Below, in pieces: positions 1-15,975 of a DNA stretch of 36,055 nt. Numbering within the stretch: the first letter of the stretch is position 1; each line of letters begins with the position of its first letter. Origin of the DNA: Acetobacteraceae bacterium. GTDB lineage: Bacteria > Pseudomonadota > Alphaproteobacteria > Acetobacterales > Acetobacteraceae. The notes beneath the pieces were generated by a model. It had not been told where the DNA came from. It saw only the letters and a list, made by a program, of their open reading frames with translations, and did not search any database. The position numbers were made by a program, and so were the translations under genes. Location: assembly GCA_025354865.1 (NCBI GenBank), contig JANXMB010000154.1, positions 1-36,055 of the forward strand, given 5' to 3'.

Positions 1-1
1 T

Positions 2-256
2 GTCGGACTGCGAGCGTATGGGCGGTTGGCGCGGCTGGCGGCCTCGGTCGTGGCACCCGGTGGCTTCCTGCTGTTGACCTGCGCAAGTCCCTTCGTTTCG
101 GCGGAGTCGTGGTGGGGGCACGTCGCTTACGGCCTGCACCGCGTCAGGCGAGAGGGGCGGGTGCTGTGGCGTGGCGGTGCGGGACCCGATCATCCGGTGC
201 ATCCCAGCCTGCCGGAGACAGCGACGCTGAAGGCGATGCTGGTATGGGTGGCATAG
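2..256 (+). CDS. Class I SAM-dependent rRNA methyltransferase (RlmI-like), C-terminal part
   Basis: Only the last 84 or so residues are present; the frame is open to the left window edge, so the gene starts outside. The visible part contains a buried strand rich in hydrophobics (VVAPGGFLLLTCASP) followed later by DHPVHPSLPETATLKAML. The combination of GG-x-LLLTxxS and a DHPV..LPET..LK tail is typical of the C-terminus of RlmI/RlmK-type 23S rRNA cytosine-C5 methyltransferases (PUA plus Rossmann fold). The family methylates large-subunit rRNA in the cytoplasm. The stop codon is TAG at 254-256. The exact target base cannot be judged from this fragment. The TTG at 26 is inside the protein and is not its start. 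Confidence 0.75.
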   Translation, partial: VGLRAYGRLARLAASVVAPGGFLLLTCASPFVSAESWWGHVAYGLHRVRREGRVLWRGGAGPDHPVHPSLPETATLKAMLVWVA

Positions 257-289
257 GTTTGGCGGCGTAGCGTGCATCGGATGCTCGGT

Positions 290-304
290 GTTCTCTTTTT
301 ATTC
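290..304. promoter_or_regulatory. Degenerate LexA-like half-site pair (GTTC-N7-ATTC)
   Basis: GTTC at 290-293 is followed, after seven T-rich bases, by ATTC at 301-304. The alphaproteobacterial LexA consensus is GTTC-N7-GTTC, so this differs at one base. It lies about 60 bp upstream of a perfect site in the same intergenic region and could be a second, weaker LexA site. On its own it would not be convincing. Confidence 0.3.
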
Positions 305-324
305 TCGAATAGGCGGTTTTTCGC

Positions 325-353
325 TTGCGTCGATGGCTGGTTGTTTGTATGAA
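325..353 (+). promoter_or_regulatory. Candidate sigma-70 promoter of the 62-aa SOS-type gene
   Basis: TTGCGT (325-330) and TATGAA (348-353) are separated by 17 bp and resemble -35 and -10 elements. The -10 overlaps the start of the LexA-type box at 351-365, which is the usual geometry for repression by occlusion. Transcription would start near 360, giving a leader of about 27 nt before the ATG at 387. Confidence 0.45.
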
Positions 354-365
354 CAAAAACAGAAC
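351..365. promoter_or_regulatory. LexA (SOS) box, GAAC-N7-GAAC
   Basis: GAAC at 351-354, seven bases (AAAAACA), then GAAC at 362-365. This matches the alphaproteobacterial LexA operator GTTC-N7-GTTC exactly (read on the other strand). It sits in the only AT-rich stretch of this intergenic region, overlaps a candidate -10 element and lies 21 bp upstream of the start codon of the small gene at 387. Confidence 0.65.
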
Positions 366-386
366 ACACACCCAAGGATGCATGCC

Positions 387-575
387 ATGAACCCCACCAT
401 CGAAATGGCTTCCTGGACCATCGATGCCTTGCTGGCCCAGGCGATGGCGCAACCCGACCCAGTGCAATCCGGCCGACCGACTACGGCGCCGGTCAGTCGA
501 TTGGAAGCGCTGCTGGCCGATGTGTTCGAAAAAGGTCTGGCGTCGATGGAACGGCAGGCGCCGACACTGCAATAG
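387..575 (+). CDS. Small protein of unknown function (62 aa), probably SOS-regulated
   Basis: I do not recognise this protein. The chosen start is the ATG at 387, because AAGGA at 374-378 lies 8 nt before it; in-frame ATGs at 378 and further upstream are poorer, and the 378 one overlaps the ribosome site. The product has 62 residues, no transmembrane segment and no cysteine. It looks like two amphipathic helices (ASWTIDALLAQAMAQ and VSRLEALLADVFEKGLASM) joined by a polar Pro/Thr/Ser linker. A LexA-type box 21 bp upstream suggests DNA-damage induction. Known alphaproteobacterial SOS-induced small proteins such as SidA are membrane inhibitors of division; this one lacks a membrane segment, so that role is not implied. 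It ends 27 bp before the convergent MmgE/PrpD gene. Confidence 0.55.
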   Translation: MNPTIEMASWTIDALLAQAMAQPDPVQSGRPTTAPVSRLEALLADVFEKGLASMERQAPTLQ

Positions 576-602
576 AACGCGCTTCGAACGACGCGGTAAC
601 AG

Positions 603-1973
603 CTAGCCGACGGTTGCCCCAACCAAAGCCGCGCCGGCGCCGGCGGCGACATTGTCCAACCCACGGCACAGCGCGACCACCTTGTCGTAAGCCGGGGCTG
701 CCGCTGCGATCGGGGCCATCCGTTTGGCATGCGCCTCGAAGTCCCAGATGAACTCCCGCCCGGTGCCCTCTTTCGTCACCACCCGACCGTCCTTCGCAAA
801 CACCGTCACCCTGGGTCCGAACAGCGTCCGCCGCACCATCGGCACGATCCGCACCCGTTTCATCAGGTCCAGAACCTCCGGCGGATCGACCTCCCCGGGA
901 TTCGGGCCGGCACCGCGCACCAGCGGGTAGCCGCCGGTCACCGCGCCGTAGGCCGAAAAATACTGCGTGCTCCCCACAACCGCATCGCCGCCGCGCGACG
1001 GGAATGCCGGGCTCGGGTATTCCGTTTCGAACCAGTTCACAACAGCCTCGATCCGATCGATGTCGGCATAGGCCAGCCCGTGTTCCTTGCACAAAGCAGC
1101 GGTCACATCGACATGGGCGATGTTGTACCCGGCGGTGGAATACACCCGATAGAGCGTCTCCAGGAACATCCAATCCGTGCCCAGGCCGGCGGTAATCGCC
1201 GCCATGTCCACCCGATTGTCGCCGGTGAAACTGTAGCGCAACAAACCGAGATTGTTGCCGAGATAGGCGTGATAGAACCCGGCCTCGCCTTCCAGCACAG
1301 TGTCGCCGCTGGGCTTGCCGAACCGTCCCAGGGCGCAGGCCAACAGCGCGTTCCGCACCGCACCGCCTTCCCGCAGCGATGCCCCGCCCGCCCGCGCACC
1401 TTCCAGATTGCCGGCCGCTAGGTTGACGCATTGCGCGATCGTGCCGTTGATCTGTTCTTCCGACAGACCGTGTATTTTCGCCGCTGCGACCGCGCCGCCG
1501 AAAATGCCGAACACCGGGCCGGAGTGGAACCCGCGCGACATCAGGGTGGGGATGAACTCCGACGCCATCCGTTCCAACACTTCGTAAGCGGCGGCGATCG
1601 CGACGATGAAGGTTTTGCCATCGCAGCCGGTCGCCTCGGCGGCGGCCAAAGCGGGCGGCATGATTGCCACACCGGGATGGGTGAGCATGCGGAACGTGTC
1701 CCACTTGCCGCCGGCAAACATCATCTCGGCATTGACGAAGGCGGCGCCGCCTTTGTTGAACCGTTCGCCGGAACACAGGGCCGTCGCGGCGGTGCCCGGG
1801 TCTTCTTCCCGAGCAAGGGCGAGCGCCTCGGTGGTGGCGGGCATGTTTTTGGCGAGAAGGGCGGAGCTTAGTGCTTGTAGGATCACCCCTTTCGCCCGAT
1901 CGACGACGGCTGGGGGCAGGTCTTCATAGCGCAGGCCGTGAACGAACGAGGCGAATTTGCGGGACATCGACAT
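603..1973 (-). CDS. MmgE/PrpD family protein
   Basis: A 456-residue protein of the MmgE/PrpD fold, the family of 2-methylcitrate dehydratase (PrpD), cis-aconitate decarboxylase and iminodisuccinate epimerase. The family usually has 440-500 residues and consists of a large all-helical domain and a smaller C-terminal alpha/beta domain, as seen here. Typical elements visible include the N-terminal LPPAVVDRAKGVILQ helix, HPGVAIMPPALAAAEA and the SRGFHSGPVFGIFG segment. The start is the ATG at 1973, since GAGGAA at 1981-1986 lies 7 nt before it; a longer frame to 2024 lacks such a site. It is the last gene of a three-gene minus-strand set after a VOC and an LLM protein, with a 72-bp gap. No methylcitrate-cycle genes are nearby, so propionate use is not indicated. 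The substrate is unknown. Confidence 0.85.
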   Translation of the reverse strand: MSMSRKFASFVHGLRYEDLPPAVVDRAKGVILQALSSALLAKNMPATTEALALAREEDPGTAATALCSGERFNKGGAAFVNAEMMFAGGKWDTFRMLTHPGVAIMPPALAAAEATGCDGKTFIVAIAAAYEVLERMASEFIPTLMSRGFHSGPVFGIFGGAVAAAKIHGLSEEQINGTIAQCVNLAAGNLEGARAGGASLREGGAVRNALLACALGRFGKPSGDTVLEGEAGFYHAYLGNNLGLLRYSFTGDNRVDMAAITAGLGTDWMFLETLYRVYSTAGYNIAHVDVTAALCKEHGLAYADIDRIEAVVNWFETEYPSPAFPSRGGDAVVGSTQYFSAYGAVTGGYPLVRGAGPNPGEVDPPEVLDLMKRVRIVPMVRRTLFGPRVTVFAKDGRVVTKEGTGREFIWDFEAHAKRMAPIAAAAPAYDKVVALCRGLDNVAAGAGAALVGATVG

Positions 1974-11273: not shown

Positions 11274-14200
11274 TTAGTGCAGCGTAGTAATCGCGAAGTT
11301 CGTGGTGCCGCCCGAATACATGTTGGCGGTGGCCCCGGACAGCGTCGATCCGTTCAAAGCGATCGCGTTGACATACAGATTGCGGTCCGTGGTGTTGGTG
11401 CCGCCGTAAGCGTCGTTGGTGAACTGGACGCCGACCGTATGCGACCCAGCGCCGAAGTTGCCGCTGAAGGTGAAGGACTGGGTCTGGCCGCTGCCATGCA
11501 GGGCAGAGACCGACTGCGCCGTCGTGACCTGCTTGCCGTCGAGGAACAGGATGAACTGCGCGTCGCCCTGATAGGCATCTTCCGACAGAGCCAGCGTCAG
11601 CACATCGGCCGGTGTGGCCGCCGTCGTGGTCGAACCGCCGACCGTAACCGTCGATGTGCCGTTCGAATACAGGCTACAGGCCGTGCCGGCGTAGGTTGTG
11701 CCATCGTAGCCGACGGAATTGACATACAGGTTCCGGTCGGTGGCACTCGTGCCGCCGCTCGCGTCGTTGATGAACGAGATCCCGATCCGATGGGATCCGC
11801 TGCCCCAGGCGCCCGTCAGCACGAAGCAGTTCGCGTCGCCGGACGAGTGCAGGGCCGAGGTGCACATCGCATCGCCATACTGCACACCGTCGACGGTGAC
11901 CTTGAACTGGGCGTCGCCTTGATAGGCATCTTCCGACACGCAAACCGTCAGCGTGTCGGTTGGGCAGGTGCTTCCGCTGCTGTTGAGATGGCCGCCGTTC
12001 GTCCCGACATACCCGGTCAGGGTCAGGCTGCCGACCTGATCGCCCAGATGCATCGCTTGGTTGCCGCTGGTGTTGTAGGACAGGCTTTGCAACGGGGCCT
12101 GACCGGCCAGATAGGCGGCTTGGCTGGCAAAGACATAGGCGTAAACACTGGCGCCGGCCGTCGTGTCGAAATGCGCATTCGCCGCAGCGACAGGCGTGTT
12201 GGTCAAGGAGTTCAGGGTCGAGTCGGCATAGATCGACTCACCGTTTTTGACCGTGCCTTGGAAGTAGGTGGTCGCGCCCGTGGCATAGGCGGCGCTTTTG
12301 TTGCTGATCAACACGAACGCCTGGGATGCCGTGTTGGAGCCGACCACGTTCGCCATGCCGGACTGCACCTGCTTCAGCGCCAGGACGTTGCTGGCGTTGT
12401 AGGTGAATTCTAGGGTGCGCGCGCCGCCGTAGACGGTGGTCAGGCTGGCCGTCGTCGCAGCACCATCGACGCTGACGTTGCTGTTGTTGTTCAGGACCAT
12501 CACCTCGGCGGTGTCGGTCGCTGTCACCGTCGCACCGGCTGCCGTCTTGCCGGTGACCGTGACGGTGTCGGCCGCTCCGGCGATGCCGGTCGTGATTTGG
12601 CCGAGCGTGCCCCAGCCGCTGCCTTCCCCGGTTTGACCTTCGCAGAGGGAACCGGAACCGGACGAGGTGCCGCCGGAGTTGTAGCCGTAATAGCCGTCGC
12701 CACTGCCATAGTTGGCGCCGTAGTTCCCGTAATATCCGTTATAGTTGTAACCGCTATAGGAGCTATAGCCACCGGAATTGTAATCTCCTGAGCTGGTGCA
12801 ACTGTTGCCGTTGTTCATATTTTCGGCGACGCCGGCCGAGTCGCCCGCCGACCCGTTCCAGTTGTTGCAAGTATAGCTGCTGCTGCTGGACCAGCCGCCA
12901 CAGCCCCAACCGGACGAGTAGGTCTGATAACCGCCGGAGTTGCAGCTTCCATTCCAGCCGTAGCCATTGTTGTCGATATTGCCGCCGCTGCCGTAGTCGC
13001 CGCTATTGTCGCAAACCTTCACGCCGATCTGGTTGTAATCGGTGCTGCCGTTATGGCCGTTCTGGTTGAAGCTGGCATAACCTTGGCAAGACGCCCCCCA
13101 GGTGAGGGACGACGTGCCACAGTTGTTGGCCGACTGACCGACGGTCCAGGAAATGCTCGCGCCGTTCAGGTTGTAGCCGCTCGGCACCGTCACCGGCATG
13201 CCGGTCATGAACACCGTGCCCGGGTTGGTGCCGGCCGGCAGCACGGTCACCCAAATCTTGTTCACCGAGTCGTAATGGGTCGTCGCCTGCGTGCAATTGG
13301 CGGAAAACTGTACCGTCGCGTCGGGCATCTTCTCGATCAGGGTCGGCTTGCCAGACTGGCTGATCGTGCAGGTGATTCCCTTGAAGGTGTAGACATTGCC
13401 GTCGGAGCAGGATTGCGGCGTGAAGCTGGAGCTGAGCCATGCCGCCTTGCCGGCGCTCAGGTTGCTGTCGTGCGCCACAAAATTGCAGGTGCCGCCCTGA
13501 TATCCGCCGCTGTCGCCGCGGTTGGTCGAGGTATGCAGGTTTTCTGCGGTGCCGGCGCCATCGCTGCCCGAGCCCATCCAATTGGACTGGTTTTGGGCAT
13601 ATTCGACGGACTGGCAGTAGCCACCGTTGTTCCAGCCGTAGCCCTGATCGGCGCTGCCGCCATTGCCGTAGGAGGTCTGATTGTCGCACACCTTGACGCC
13701 AATGGCGTTGTAGTCGTCGTAGCCATCCGAACCGGCTGCGATGGACGATTTATAGCCCTGGCAGGAGGCGTTCCAGTTGACGCTGGTCGAACCGCAGTTG
13801 TTCGACGTGTCGTCGACCGTCCAGGTGCAGGTGGCGCCGGACAAGTTGCACCCGGTCGGCACATGCACGGGCACGCCGGTGCAGAAGACGCTGCCGGGGT
13901 TGCTGTCGGCGGGAACCGTGGTCACCCAGCAGTCGCGCGAGGAATCGTATTGCGTCGTGGCCTGGGTGCAGTTCTTCGAGAAGGTGACGATCGAGTCGCC
14001 GCATTGTTGCACCAACGGGGACGAACCGACGCCGTCACCGCTAATGGTGCACTTCACGCCCTGGAAGATGTAGGTCGAGCCATCGTGGCAGTTGGTCGGC
14101 TTGAACGTTGTGCTCAGCCATGCCGTGCAGCCGGAGCCGAGATTCGTACCGCTCACGGTGTGGCAGATCGATCCGCTGGTTCCGGTGTTGCAGCTGATCT

Positions 14201-15392
14201 GATTGACGACCTCGGTGTATTGCCAGGTTTCGCCGACATCCAGCGCGCCGTTGTGGTTGGCGTCGCCGACATTGTAGCCGTTGGACAGCACGGCCTTCGG
14301 GGTGGTCAGGCGGGCTGCGGTGGCTGTCCCGATATTGTCGGAAATCGTGACGTTGGACAGCGCGACGGAACCGGTGTTGGTCACGGCGAAGGTGTAGGAG
14401 ATCTGGCCGCAGGCGTTGACCACGACCTTGCAGGGGATCTTCTCCACCGAAATGCCGCCACCGCCACCACCACCACCACCACCGGTGCCCGTCGCGACCA
14501 GACCGGCTTCCACATTGTGGTTCGCCTGACCGGCCGTCAGGGTGATCGGGCCGGTGATACCGGTCAGTTGGTTGGCGCTGCTGTTGATGCCCGCGTTGGT
14601 GCCGACACCCTGCGTGGTCAAGGCATAGCCGGTCGGTGCCACGAATTCGACTTTGTAAGTTCCGGCAACCAGGTTGTTGAACGAATATCGGCCATTGGCA
14701 TCGGTGGTCGTGGTCGCGAGGATCGTCGTGCCGGTGCTGTCCAGCAGTTCGACTGTGACCCCTTTGACGCCCGGCCCGCCGTCGAAGCCGGCGTCTTCGA
14801 GGCCGTCGTGGTTGGTGTCGAGGTACACGATGTCGCCGATCGAGCAAAGCTGCGACGTTGCGATCGTGCCGAAATTCTGATTGGCGCTGCTGGTGCCGAT
14901 CGCAGACAACGTCGAACCGGCGGTCGAAATCGCCATCGTCCAAGTGATGCGGACGTTGATGCTGCTATAGCCCTGCGCGAACACCAGGGGCGTCGAAGCG
15001 GGTGTTGCAGCGTTGACCGTCTGCGTCGCGATCAGGTTGCCCGCGGTATCGAACACCTGTTCGGTCGCGACGAATGTGTCGGCCGAAGCGAGACCGGCCA
15101 GCACATCGATCTGATACGACGAGTCAATCGAATCGATAAGCTGCAAGCTGCTCGTGGACGCAACATTGTATGTGAATACGTTTATCTGCGAGGAACTCGC
15201 GCCGGACACACCCGCGCTGAACGCCTGGAAGCTGACCCCCGAGAGGCCGAACGCATCGGTGTCGGTAAGGACGAAGGGACCGCTCGCTAAGAACGAGGTT
15301 GTGGTTCCGATATCCGTCTCGGTATCGACGATATTGGTAATCGACAGAAAGCCGACGCTGAGGTTGCCAAGGTTTTGGGTGGTCGTGGTCAT
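11274..15392 (-). CDS. Giant multidomain extracellular-type protein with SdrD_B-like, Cys-rich and twin CBM60-like domains
   Basis: A 1372-residue protein. The ATG at 15392 is chosen because AGGTGG at 15400-15405 lies 7 nt upstream; an ATG six bases earlier is too close. Domains in order: a Ser/Thr-rich N-terminal beta domain (1-180); an SdrD_B-like domain with an EF-hand-like DTNHDGLED loop (about 183-300); ten consecutive Gly residues (304-313); a DUF11-like domain (about 314-420); two Cys-rich repeats (about 424-588 and 651-814); a Gly/Tyr/Ser/Asn-rich stretch (818-915); a beta domain of unknown family (about 930-1135); and two CBM60-like xylan-binding modules (about 1145-1253 and 1263-1371), each with SEDAYQGDAQF and TDRNLYVN. 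It has no N-terminal signal peptide, no PEP-CTERM and no recognisable RTX repeats, so the export route is unknown. Carbohydrate binding is inferred from the two modules. It follows the PEP-CTERM gene on the same strand. Confidence 0.8.
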   Translation of the reverse strand: MTTTTQNLGNLSVGFLSITNIVDTETDIGTTTSFLASGPFVLTDTDAFGLSGVSFQAFSAGVSGASSSQINVFTYNVASTSSLQLIDSIDSSYQIDVLAGLASADTFVATEQVFDTAGNLIATQTVNAATPASTPLVFAQGYSSINVRITWTMAISTAGSTLSAIGTSSANQNFGTIATSQLCSIGDIVYLDTNHDGLEDAGFDGGPGVKGVTVELLDSTGTTILATTTTDANGRYSFNNLVAGTYKVEFVAPTGYALTTQGVGTNAGINSSANQLTGITGPITLTAGQANHNVEAGLVATGTGGGGGGGGGGISVEKIPCKVVVNACGQISYTFAVTNTGSVALSNVTISDNIGTATAARLTTPKAVLSNGYNVGDANHNGALDVGETWQYTEVVNQISCNTGTSGSICHTVSGTNLGSGCTAWLSTTFKPTNCHDGSTYIFQGVKCTISGDGVGSSPLVQQCGDSIVTFSKNCTQATTQYDSSRDCWVTTVPADSNPGSVFCTGVPVHVPTGCNLSGATCTWTVDDTSNNCGSTSVNWNASCQGYKSSIAAGSDGYDDYNAIGVKVCDNQTSYGNGGSADQGYGWNNGGYCQSVEYAQNQSNWMGSGSDGAGTAENLHTSTNRGDSGGYQGGTCNFVAHDSNLSAGKAAWLSSSFTPQSCSDGNVYTFKGITCTISQSGKPTLIEKMPDATVQFSANCTQATTHYDSVNKIWVTVLPAGTNPGTVFMTGMPVTVPSGYNLNGASISWTVGQSANNCGTSSLTWGASCQGYASFNQNGHNGSTDYNQIGVKVCDNSGDYGSGGNIDNNGYGWNGSCNSGGYQTYSSGWGCGGWSSSSSYTCNNWNGSAGDSAGVAENMNNGNSCTSSGDYNSGGYSSYSGYNYNGYYGNYGANYGSGDGYYGYNSGGTSSGSGSLCEGQTGEGSGWGTLGQITTGIAGAADTVTVTGKTAAGATVTATDTAEVMVLNNNSNVSVDGAATTASLTTVYGGARTLEFTYNASNVLALKQVQSGMANVVGSNTASQAFVLISNKSAAYATGATTYFQGTVKNGESIYADSTLNSLTNTPVAAANAHFDTTAGASVYAYVFASQAAYLAGQAPLQSLSYNTSGNQAMHLGDQVGSLTLTGYVGTNGGHLNSSGSTCPTDTLTVCVSEDAYQGDAQFKVTVDGVQYGDAMCTSALHSSGDANCFVLTGAWGSGSHRIGISFINDASGGTSATDRNLYVNSVGYDGTTYAGTACSLYSNGTSTVTVGGSTTTAATPADVLTLALSEDAYQGDAQFILFLDGKQVTTAQSVSALHGSGQTQSFTFSGNFGAGSHTVGVQFTNDAYGGTNTTDRNLYVNAIALNGSTLSGATANMYSGGTTNFAITTLH
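11280..11606 (-). repeat. CBM60-like module, copy 2 (C-terminal)
   Basis: The last 109 or so residues of the giant protein. It shares SEDAYQGDAQF, a central HGSGQ, GNFGAGSH, NDAYGGT and TDRNLYVN with the upstream copy. The pattern is that of the Ca-dependent xylan-binding module (CBM60-type). It lacks the Cys residues found in copy 1. Confidence 0.65.
11634..11960 (-). repeat. CBM60-like module, copy 1
   Basis: About 109 residues, parallel to copy 2 with the same SEDAYQGDAQF and TDRNLYVN blocks. This copy has extra cysteines (VCVSED, AMCTS, ANCFV and TACSL) that could form disulfides and imply an oxidising extracellular location. Confidence 0.65.
12648..12941 (-). repeat. Low-complexity Gly/Tyr/Ser/Asn-rich coding segment
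   Basis: About 98 residues made almost only of Gly, Tyr, Ser and Asn, densest in the Y/G/N run around residues 875-910. It separates the second Cys-rich repeat from the C-terminal half and has the look of a flexible or self-associating linker. The reading frame stays open throughout. Confidence 0.8.
12951..13442 (-). repeat. Cys-rich 165-residue repeat, copy 2
   Basis: Residues about 651-814 of the giant protein. They align over the full length with copy 1 through NCTQATT, WVT, NPG-VF, VP-G-NL, NCG, ASCQGY and IGVKVCDN. Five Cys positions of copy 1 are replaced here (by Met, Ile, Met, Tyr and Ile). Confidence 0.8.
13629..14123 (-). repeat. Cys-rich 165-residue repeat, copy 1
   Basis: Residues about 424-588 of the giant protein. 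The domain is unrecognised; it contains FKPTNCHDG, a CTIS strand, NCTQATT and ends in GVKVCDN. It holds more than ten Cys residues, so several disulfides are likely if the protein is exported. Confidence 0.8.
14454..14483 (-). repeat. Poly-Gly trinucleotide tract
   Basis: Ten glycine codons in a row (GGT/GGC), seen on the plus strand as repeated CCA/CCG triplets. It links the SdrD_B-like and DUF11-like domains. A triplet tract can change length by slippage without breaking the frame. Confidence 0.8.
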
Positions 15393-15975
15393 AATCATTC
15401 CACCTGTTAACTTTGAGAATGGGCGAAAAGGCAGTTTGAGTCAGGAAGTCCGCCGGCCGAGCCATCGCCGCTCGGCGTTCTGCCGAGTGCCGCGTATGTC
15501 GCAGGTGAGGCGGATTGGCTCATTGTTCCCTTCTCGTCGGACATCGAGCCACGTACCTACAGACCCCGGGGGGCAGGATCCAATCCGATAGCGAGATAGT
15601 GCCAGCGCGATTCGGGTTTGCAAACTATAAATGTAAATTTACGATTATTTAGACAATAATATCGAAACCCCGGAAATACCTCACCGTAGTAGACGATTCC
15701 GGGGCTTCTCCAGGGCGCGTGCCCTGTCGAATCAGAGGCACCCGGTTGCAATCGACGGCGATTGCGAAGGAAAAATGTCAAAATTCTTAAAATTTATGCG
15801 GATTTTATGACGAACGACAAGGTTTGATCGCCGAGGCTAGCTGGCTCGACACGACACCACTCGCTGCAAGGGCGCTTGTCGATCACATTGCCGCACTGTG
15901 AGGCCAGTCGCTGTTCGGTGGAAACGCTCTATGTCAGCGCTGCGACGTACGAGCGCGTGCTCGGTCGTTGACGCT
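15393..15975. other. Intergenic region upstream of the giant gene, no gene supported
   Basis: About 580 bp between the giant gene and the PEP-CTERM gene. The part at 15600-15810 is strikingly AT-rich against a GC-rich background. It contains GTAAATTTAC (15633-15642, a perfect palindrome), ATTATT/AATAAT (15644-15660) and an 8-bp inverted repeat (15668-15704). A 74-codon frame across it (15557-15781) starts at TTG without a ribosome site and is not accepted. ACGCTCTAT is repeated directly at 15924-15932 and 15971-15979, the second copy covering the PEP-CTERM stop codon. Confidence 0.6.
15668..15704. promoter_or_regulatory. Inverted repeat CCCCGGAA-N21-TTCCGGGG upstream of the giant gene
   Basis: Arms at 15668-15675 and 15697-15704 match perfectly over 8 bp. 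The left arm lies in CGAAACCCCGG (15663-15673), which is nearly identical to CGAAACCTCGG (16819-16829) in front of the PEP-CTERM gene. It could be an operator or RNA structure; its distance of about 275 bp from the start codon makes the role unclear. Confidence 0.4.

Follow-up and report, generated by a model that had tools for sequence, protein, structure and literature searches.

SOS regulons combine a small shared core with lineage-specific genes whose job is unknown. In Alphaproteobacteria, the LexA motif was described as GTTC-N7-GTTC, and parE and splB were placed among the SOS genes (PMC3323433, partial text); the same motif was given for Caulobacter (PMC12907096 and PMC9578287, partial texts). 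Two small proteins of Caulobacter, SidA (29 aa) and DidA (71 aa), are presented as damage-induced division inhibitors in the partial text of PMC4211646. The literature was searched, and no paper on the LexA regulon in Acetobacteraceae was found.

A stretch of 36,055 nucleotides from an Acetobacteraceae bacterium, hereafter called the window, was analyzed. It is contig C137 of a 190-contig, 4.76-Mb assembly. A small gene preceded by a LexA-type box lies near its start, and the following features were considered:

387..575, + strand: gene for a 62-aa small protein, with the conserved C-terminal helix VSR[LM]EAxLADVFEKGLA at codons 36-52
374..378, + strand: candidate ribosome-binding site AAGGA, read from the sequence; the AAGGAT-N7-ATG layout is also found in the relative G028
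351..365, + strand: predicted LexA operator of the alphaproteobacterial type, GAACAAAAACAGAAC, overlapping the -10; the same box type is found at lexA, recA and imuA of the genome
325..353, + strand: weak candidate sigma-70 promoter TTGCGT-N17-TATGAA, read from the sequence, with identical spacing in the relative G015 and the strain copy C24
290..304, + strand: conserved upstream element GTTCTCTTTTTATTC, like GTTC-N7-GTTC with one mismatch

We consider it likely that this gene encodes a lineage-specific, SOS-regulated small soluble protein, whose helix would dock on a partner in the damage response.

The Small Gene Is Very Probably Translated

Two genomes with a relative of the small protein, G015 and G028, were placed by the genome search in the window's own genus. 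In addition, the start of contig C24 in the same assembly (G000:C24:1-870) holds an 870-bp stretch with 95.6% identity to window 1-870. The most natural reading of this stretch is the window locus in a second strain, and the assembly appears to combine two strains where these contig ends overlap. Such a mixture would account for the break of the contig there, and it provided a natural test of selection.

The 62-codon frame runs from the ATG at 387 to a TAG stop at 573-575. An alternative in-frame ATG at 378 would yield 65 aa, but the start at 387 was favoured because AAGGA is spaced 8 nt before it and because the same layout is present in G028. A ribosome site precedes the start in all three species, in agreement with the good site claimed in the first-pass annotation. 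Across the whole frame, the window and C24 differ by six synonymous changes and one non-synonymous change (Sd 6.0/47.0, Nd 1.0/139.0), whereas the five other frames would carry 3.5-6 non-synonymous changes. For the 23-codon core, pS was 0.60 and pN 0.12 between G028 and G015 (other frames, pN 0.17-0.32), and pS was 0.64 and pN 0.15 between the window and G028 (other frames, pN 0.22-0.33); the 62-codon frame had the lowest pN of the six in both comparisons. The window-G015 core comparison alone did not discriminate (pN 0.22 versus 0.21 in one minus-strand frame). Conservation of the reading frame, which had been proposed as a check, was thus found among the window, C24, G015 and G028. These substitution patterns make it very probable that the frame is translated and that purifying selection acts on it.

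It is highly improbable that the frame is a spurious one of GC-rich DNA, without a protein product. The single non-synonymous change against C24 (Nd 1.0/139.0, versus 3.5-6 in the other frames), the lowest core pN in G028-G015 (0.12) and window-G028 (0.15) and the ribosome site before the start in three species all argue against it, although many overlapping open frames lie on both strands here, homologues are few, and the window-G015 core comparison gives the 62-codon frame no advantage.

The neighbours of the small gene were also compared. An RNA-methyltransferase-like gene lies directly upstream in the window and in G015, and about 4.7 kb away on the opposite strand in G028. The downstream neighbour is an MmgE/PrpD gene in the window and an amidohydrolase-like gene in G015 and G028; the neighbour domain scan covered, of the relatives' copies, only those of G015, and the methyltransferase and amidohydrolase models fell below their cut-offs. 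The LexA-type box and the upstream element thus both remain with the small gene as its neighbours change between species. Elsewhere in the window, the minus strand at 11274-15398 encodes a 1374-aa protein with SdrD_B, DUF7467 and xylan-binding CBM60 domains, which is probably a large surface or secreted protein.

A LexA-Type Box Overlaps the Candidate Promoter

At 351-365, the sequence GAACAAAAACAGAAC matches GAAC-N7-GAAC with zero mismatch. It overlaps TATGAA, the candidate -10 of 325-353, and is followed by a 21-bp spacer (bases 366-386) and the ATG at 387. The first-pass annotation had reported a perfect box, its overlap with a candidate -10 and its 21-bp distance from the gene, and all of these were confirmed; the promoter itself is weak by consensus, and a consensus scan requiring at least 9/12 matches found no promoter at 325-353. 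By reading of the sequence, TTGCGN-N17-TATGAA is kept in G015 and C24, and G028 has TATGGA without a good -35.

The corresponding boxes are GAACAAAAAAAGAAC in C24, GAACGGAACAGGAAC in G015 and GGACAAAATAGGAAC in G028, all located shortly before the start codon. The first-pass annotation had asked whether the upstream box is conserved in related genomes, and the answer is divided: neither G015 nor the strain copy shows any mismatch, but G028 carries a single one (GGAC). Among the window, C24 and G015, the N7 differs and both GAAC arms are unchanged.

The chance of such a box was then estimated. The window has two perfect boxes, against a shuffle mean of 1.12, and at least two were present in 32/100 shuffles; the box by itself is not significant in the window. 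The second box, at 575-589, has both arms broken in C24 and was therefore taken as chance. In 20,000 sequences generated for each 250-bp upstream region by a first-order Markov model, the final 60 bp ahead of the start contained a perfect box with P ∼0.0004 for the window and 0.0016 for G015; for G028, where up to one mismatch was allowed, P was 0.011. The whole genome holds 148 perfect GAAC-N7-GAAC sites, versus 53 for the backward-read pattern. The case for LexA would thus draw its weight from the position and conservation of the box, a single box saying little. At the level of sequence, LexA control of the small gene appears well supported.

An Upstream Element Is Conserved at the Locus

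The pattern GTTCNCTTTTTAYYC, to which the element at 290-304 belongs, had five matches in the 33 genus genomes, and four of these are at the small-gene locus (three species and the strain copy). The fifth match, in G016, sits within coding sequence and was dropped. The element precedes the start of the box by 61 bp in both the window and C24; the distance is 51 bp for G015 and 105 bp for G028. In G028, three units of a 15-bp tandem repeat (GATCTAYGCGTTCCC) were found at L002:1391-1435, where they separate the upstream element from the LexA-like box.

The element may be a second LexA operator, a site of another regulator, or the T-tract of the upstream gene's terminator. In the window, a scan found a terminator-like stem at 274-291, just before the element, and the best fold at this place is a different one. 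A hairpin of 7 pairs in C24 and one of 6 pairs in G015 directly precede the T-run; in G028, there is no hairpin before it. The folding energies of the hairpins were not beyond those of shuffles (z -0.54 to 0.11), and no Rfam match was found within 200-700.

Two further explanations involve this element. It is unlikely that the gene, although real, escapes LexA, with the GAAC repeat due to chance or to another regulator and with the GTTCNCTTTTTAYYC element or something else in control. The 148 sites of the genome, the imperfect box of G028 and an upstream element that is equally conserved and nearly locus-unique in the genus would fit such control. However, a perfect box is similarly placed in G015 and C24 with a small chance P, the N7 varies among the window, C24 and G015 while the GAAC arms stay, and the upstream element is itself similar to GTTC-N7-GTTC, or might be no more than a terminator T-tract. 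The other explanation is a new soluble SOS effector family of about 60-67 aa, confined to one Acetobacteraceae genus, whose single conserved helix would bind and inactivate a division or replication protein and whose LexA promoter would have two cooperative operators (290-304 and 351-365). This appears quite improbable, and its odds were slightly lowered because 290-304 may also be read as a terminator. LexA control through the box at 351-365 is the preferred reading.

LexA-Type Boxes at Other SOS Genes

The lexA gene is located on C149 (TIGR00498, above cut-off), and a perfect box ends 48 bp before its ATG. Perfect boxes in the genome were also found upstream of recA and just before a PA0069-family radical SAM gene; those at parE and imuA span the start codon, and an ImuB-like gene comes after imuA. 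The NCBIfam cut-offs were passed by the LexA, RecA and radical SAM proteins but not by ImuA or the truncated ParE. The gene after imuA is presumably imuB, its best models being DNA polymerase IV. We infer that splB of PMC3323433 is the PA0069-type gene. Moreover, lexA and recA carry a perfect GAAC-N7-GAAC upstream in all three species.

Among 100 of the 148 sites that were listed, 12 box stretches were fetched. Five of them contain genes that belong to the SOS response in other bacteria: recA, lexA, imuA, the PA0069-type radical SAM gene and parE. The other seven (C38, C23, C92, C12, C121, C18 and C89) have no recognised SOS gene, indicating that chance perfect boxes are common. Since the 12 stretches were hand-picked, the criterion being either AT richness of the box or the proximity of an SOS gene, 5/12 is not a rate.

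In the recA promoters of the three species, GTTC/GAAC-N7 repeats occur two or three times, at spacings of 35 or 42 bp and in both orientations:

L076:1303-1352; L101:1336-1392; L102 1299-1390 (L102 on the reverse strand): recA promoter repeats in a multi-operator arrangement

Two perfect boxes were also seen at L080:1757-1822, between a glycosyltransferase-like gene (labelled by eye) and the PA0069-family radical SAM gene, which suggests that the divergent glycosyltransferase-like gene may also be SOS-controlled.

The Small Protein Is Rare

The core search found the small protein in 3/33 genus genomes. It is absent from 30/33, indicating that SOS in general does not depend on the small gene. 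In the family draw, 2/397 genomes had the protein (the own genome and G028; G015 was outside this draw), and in the class draw, with 16 candidates scored per genome, 1/385 had it, the own genome. A scan for [LIV]LADVFEK in a collection of 84,980 species gave 149 stretches, two of which encode a relative, both from the species of G015 and G028. All these searches demand a near-intact core, so that strongly diverged relatives could escape. The initial genome search had given 6/59 genomes at E ≤0.1, from which the own genome, G015 and G028 were kept; G041, G050 and G033 (E 0.0036-0.093) were dropped, having internal stops or other open frames and no core motif in the printed stretches. From 16/397 initial matches of the family draw, for which 15 candidates were scored per genome, 14 partial matches (E 0.003-0.01) were dropped.

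The positions invariant in all four sequences (window, C24, G015 and G028) are VSR.EA.LADVFEKGLA; both sequence and length are variable in the N-terminal half and in the tail. Homologues of the RNA-methyltransferase-like gene were found in 11/33 genus genomes by the synteny search. When 9/19 synteny loci (L027-L035) were scanned for boxes and core motifs, both were present only in L028, the locus of G015. As to phage origin, no phage match was obtained, and 63 pattern-matching stretches in viral contigs gave 0 confirmed cases. One weak plasmid match (E 0.6) lay under an ERCC4-domain gene and was taken as chance. The small protein would thus represent a rare, lineage-specific family, new in the libraries searched.

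A Conserved Amphipathic Helix

The first-pass annotation had seen neither a recognised domain nor a membrane segment in the protein, and this was borne out. For the small protein, Pfam, NCBIfam and PHROG gave nothing convincing and the PDB yielded no match by sequence; none of the three family members scanned matched NCBIfam. Stray matches of single members to Pfam DUF3136 (E 0.023) and phrog_26899 of PHROG (E 0.23) were set aside. The largest 19-residue Kyte-Doolittle mean was 0.75, giving no membrane span. The term undescribed would apply to the family libraries and collections searched.

AlphaFold2, run with four sequences, predicted helices at residues 3-21 and 38-57 (mean pLDDT 70.4, pTM 0.33), with a mean pLDDT of 90 at residues 41-50. 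Only the second helix is strongly conserved. It is amphipathic in all three species, with a moment of 0.40-0.44 (152-241/5000 shuffles as high), and the N-terminal stretches, picked by eye in G028 and G015, are not (1466-3610/5000). Mimicry of the RecA N-terminus by the conserved helix was considered and rejected, because shuffled cores were equal or better in 1718/2000 cases; likeness to LexA and ImuB was rejected in the same way (1843/2000 and 1388/2000).

Discussion

The proposed LexA control is supported by the conserved frame, the conserved box, the promoter layout common to G015 and the box at other SOS genes; it is opposed by the box mismatch (GGAC) and poor -35 in G028 and by the promoter scan, which found none. 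We infer LexA repression and damage induction as follows. LexA bound at 351-365 would cover the -10 and keep the gene off. Upon DNA damage, RecA would trigger self-cleavage of LexA, and transcription would start from the small gene's own promoter, the gene lying between two unrelated neighbours. The product would be mostly flexible, and its conserved amphipathic C-terminal helix would dock on a partner protein. The small protein is probably a damage-response factor specific to its lineage. A role in division or repair, with the partner and the effect, is a guess; the division machinery or a repair or replication factor would be the likeliest partner. No particular partner was indicated; resemblance to RecA, LexA and ImuB was not above shuffles.

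SOS regulons often include a small division inhibitor, so inhibition of division is a reasonable guess for this gene. In a sharper form of the preferred explanation, which is possible but doubtful, the protein would be an SOS inhibitor of division that works in the cytoplasm, has a role comparable to that of SulA or SidA and holds back division until repair is complete. Its size, its own LexA-type promoter and its rarity across species agree with this, as does the smallness of the two Caulobacter inhibitors. However, both of those are membrane proteins in the partial text of PMC4211646, and the small protein has no membrane span and no match to a named division-inhibitor family. A soluble small protein would therefore act differently.

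Taken together, this is a real and rare small protein gene, probably under SOS control, ordinary as a kind. An unannotated family whose box is conserved and whose short helix is invariant offers a clean, directly testable SOS case. If division is stopped by the small protein, the membrane inhibitors of Caulobacter would have a soluble counterpart in it.

The comparison with known systems was made by description, from partial texts. SidA is likewise a small alphaproteobacterial protein with an SOS-controlled gene, but is an inner-membrane protein of 29 aa (PMC4211646), whereas the small protein has 62 aa and is predicted to be soluble. DidA is likewise small and damage-induced, but it has a membrane helix and is SOS-independent (PMC4211646), whereas the small gene has a LexA-type box. 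The hypA and hypB genes of Betaproteobacteria are likewise unknown genes of a predicted SOS regulon in one lineage, but belong to another bacterial class with another LexA motif (PMC3323433).
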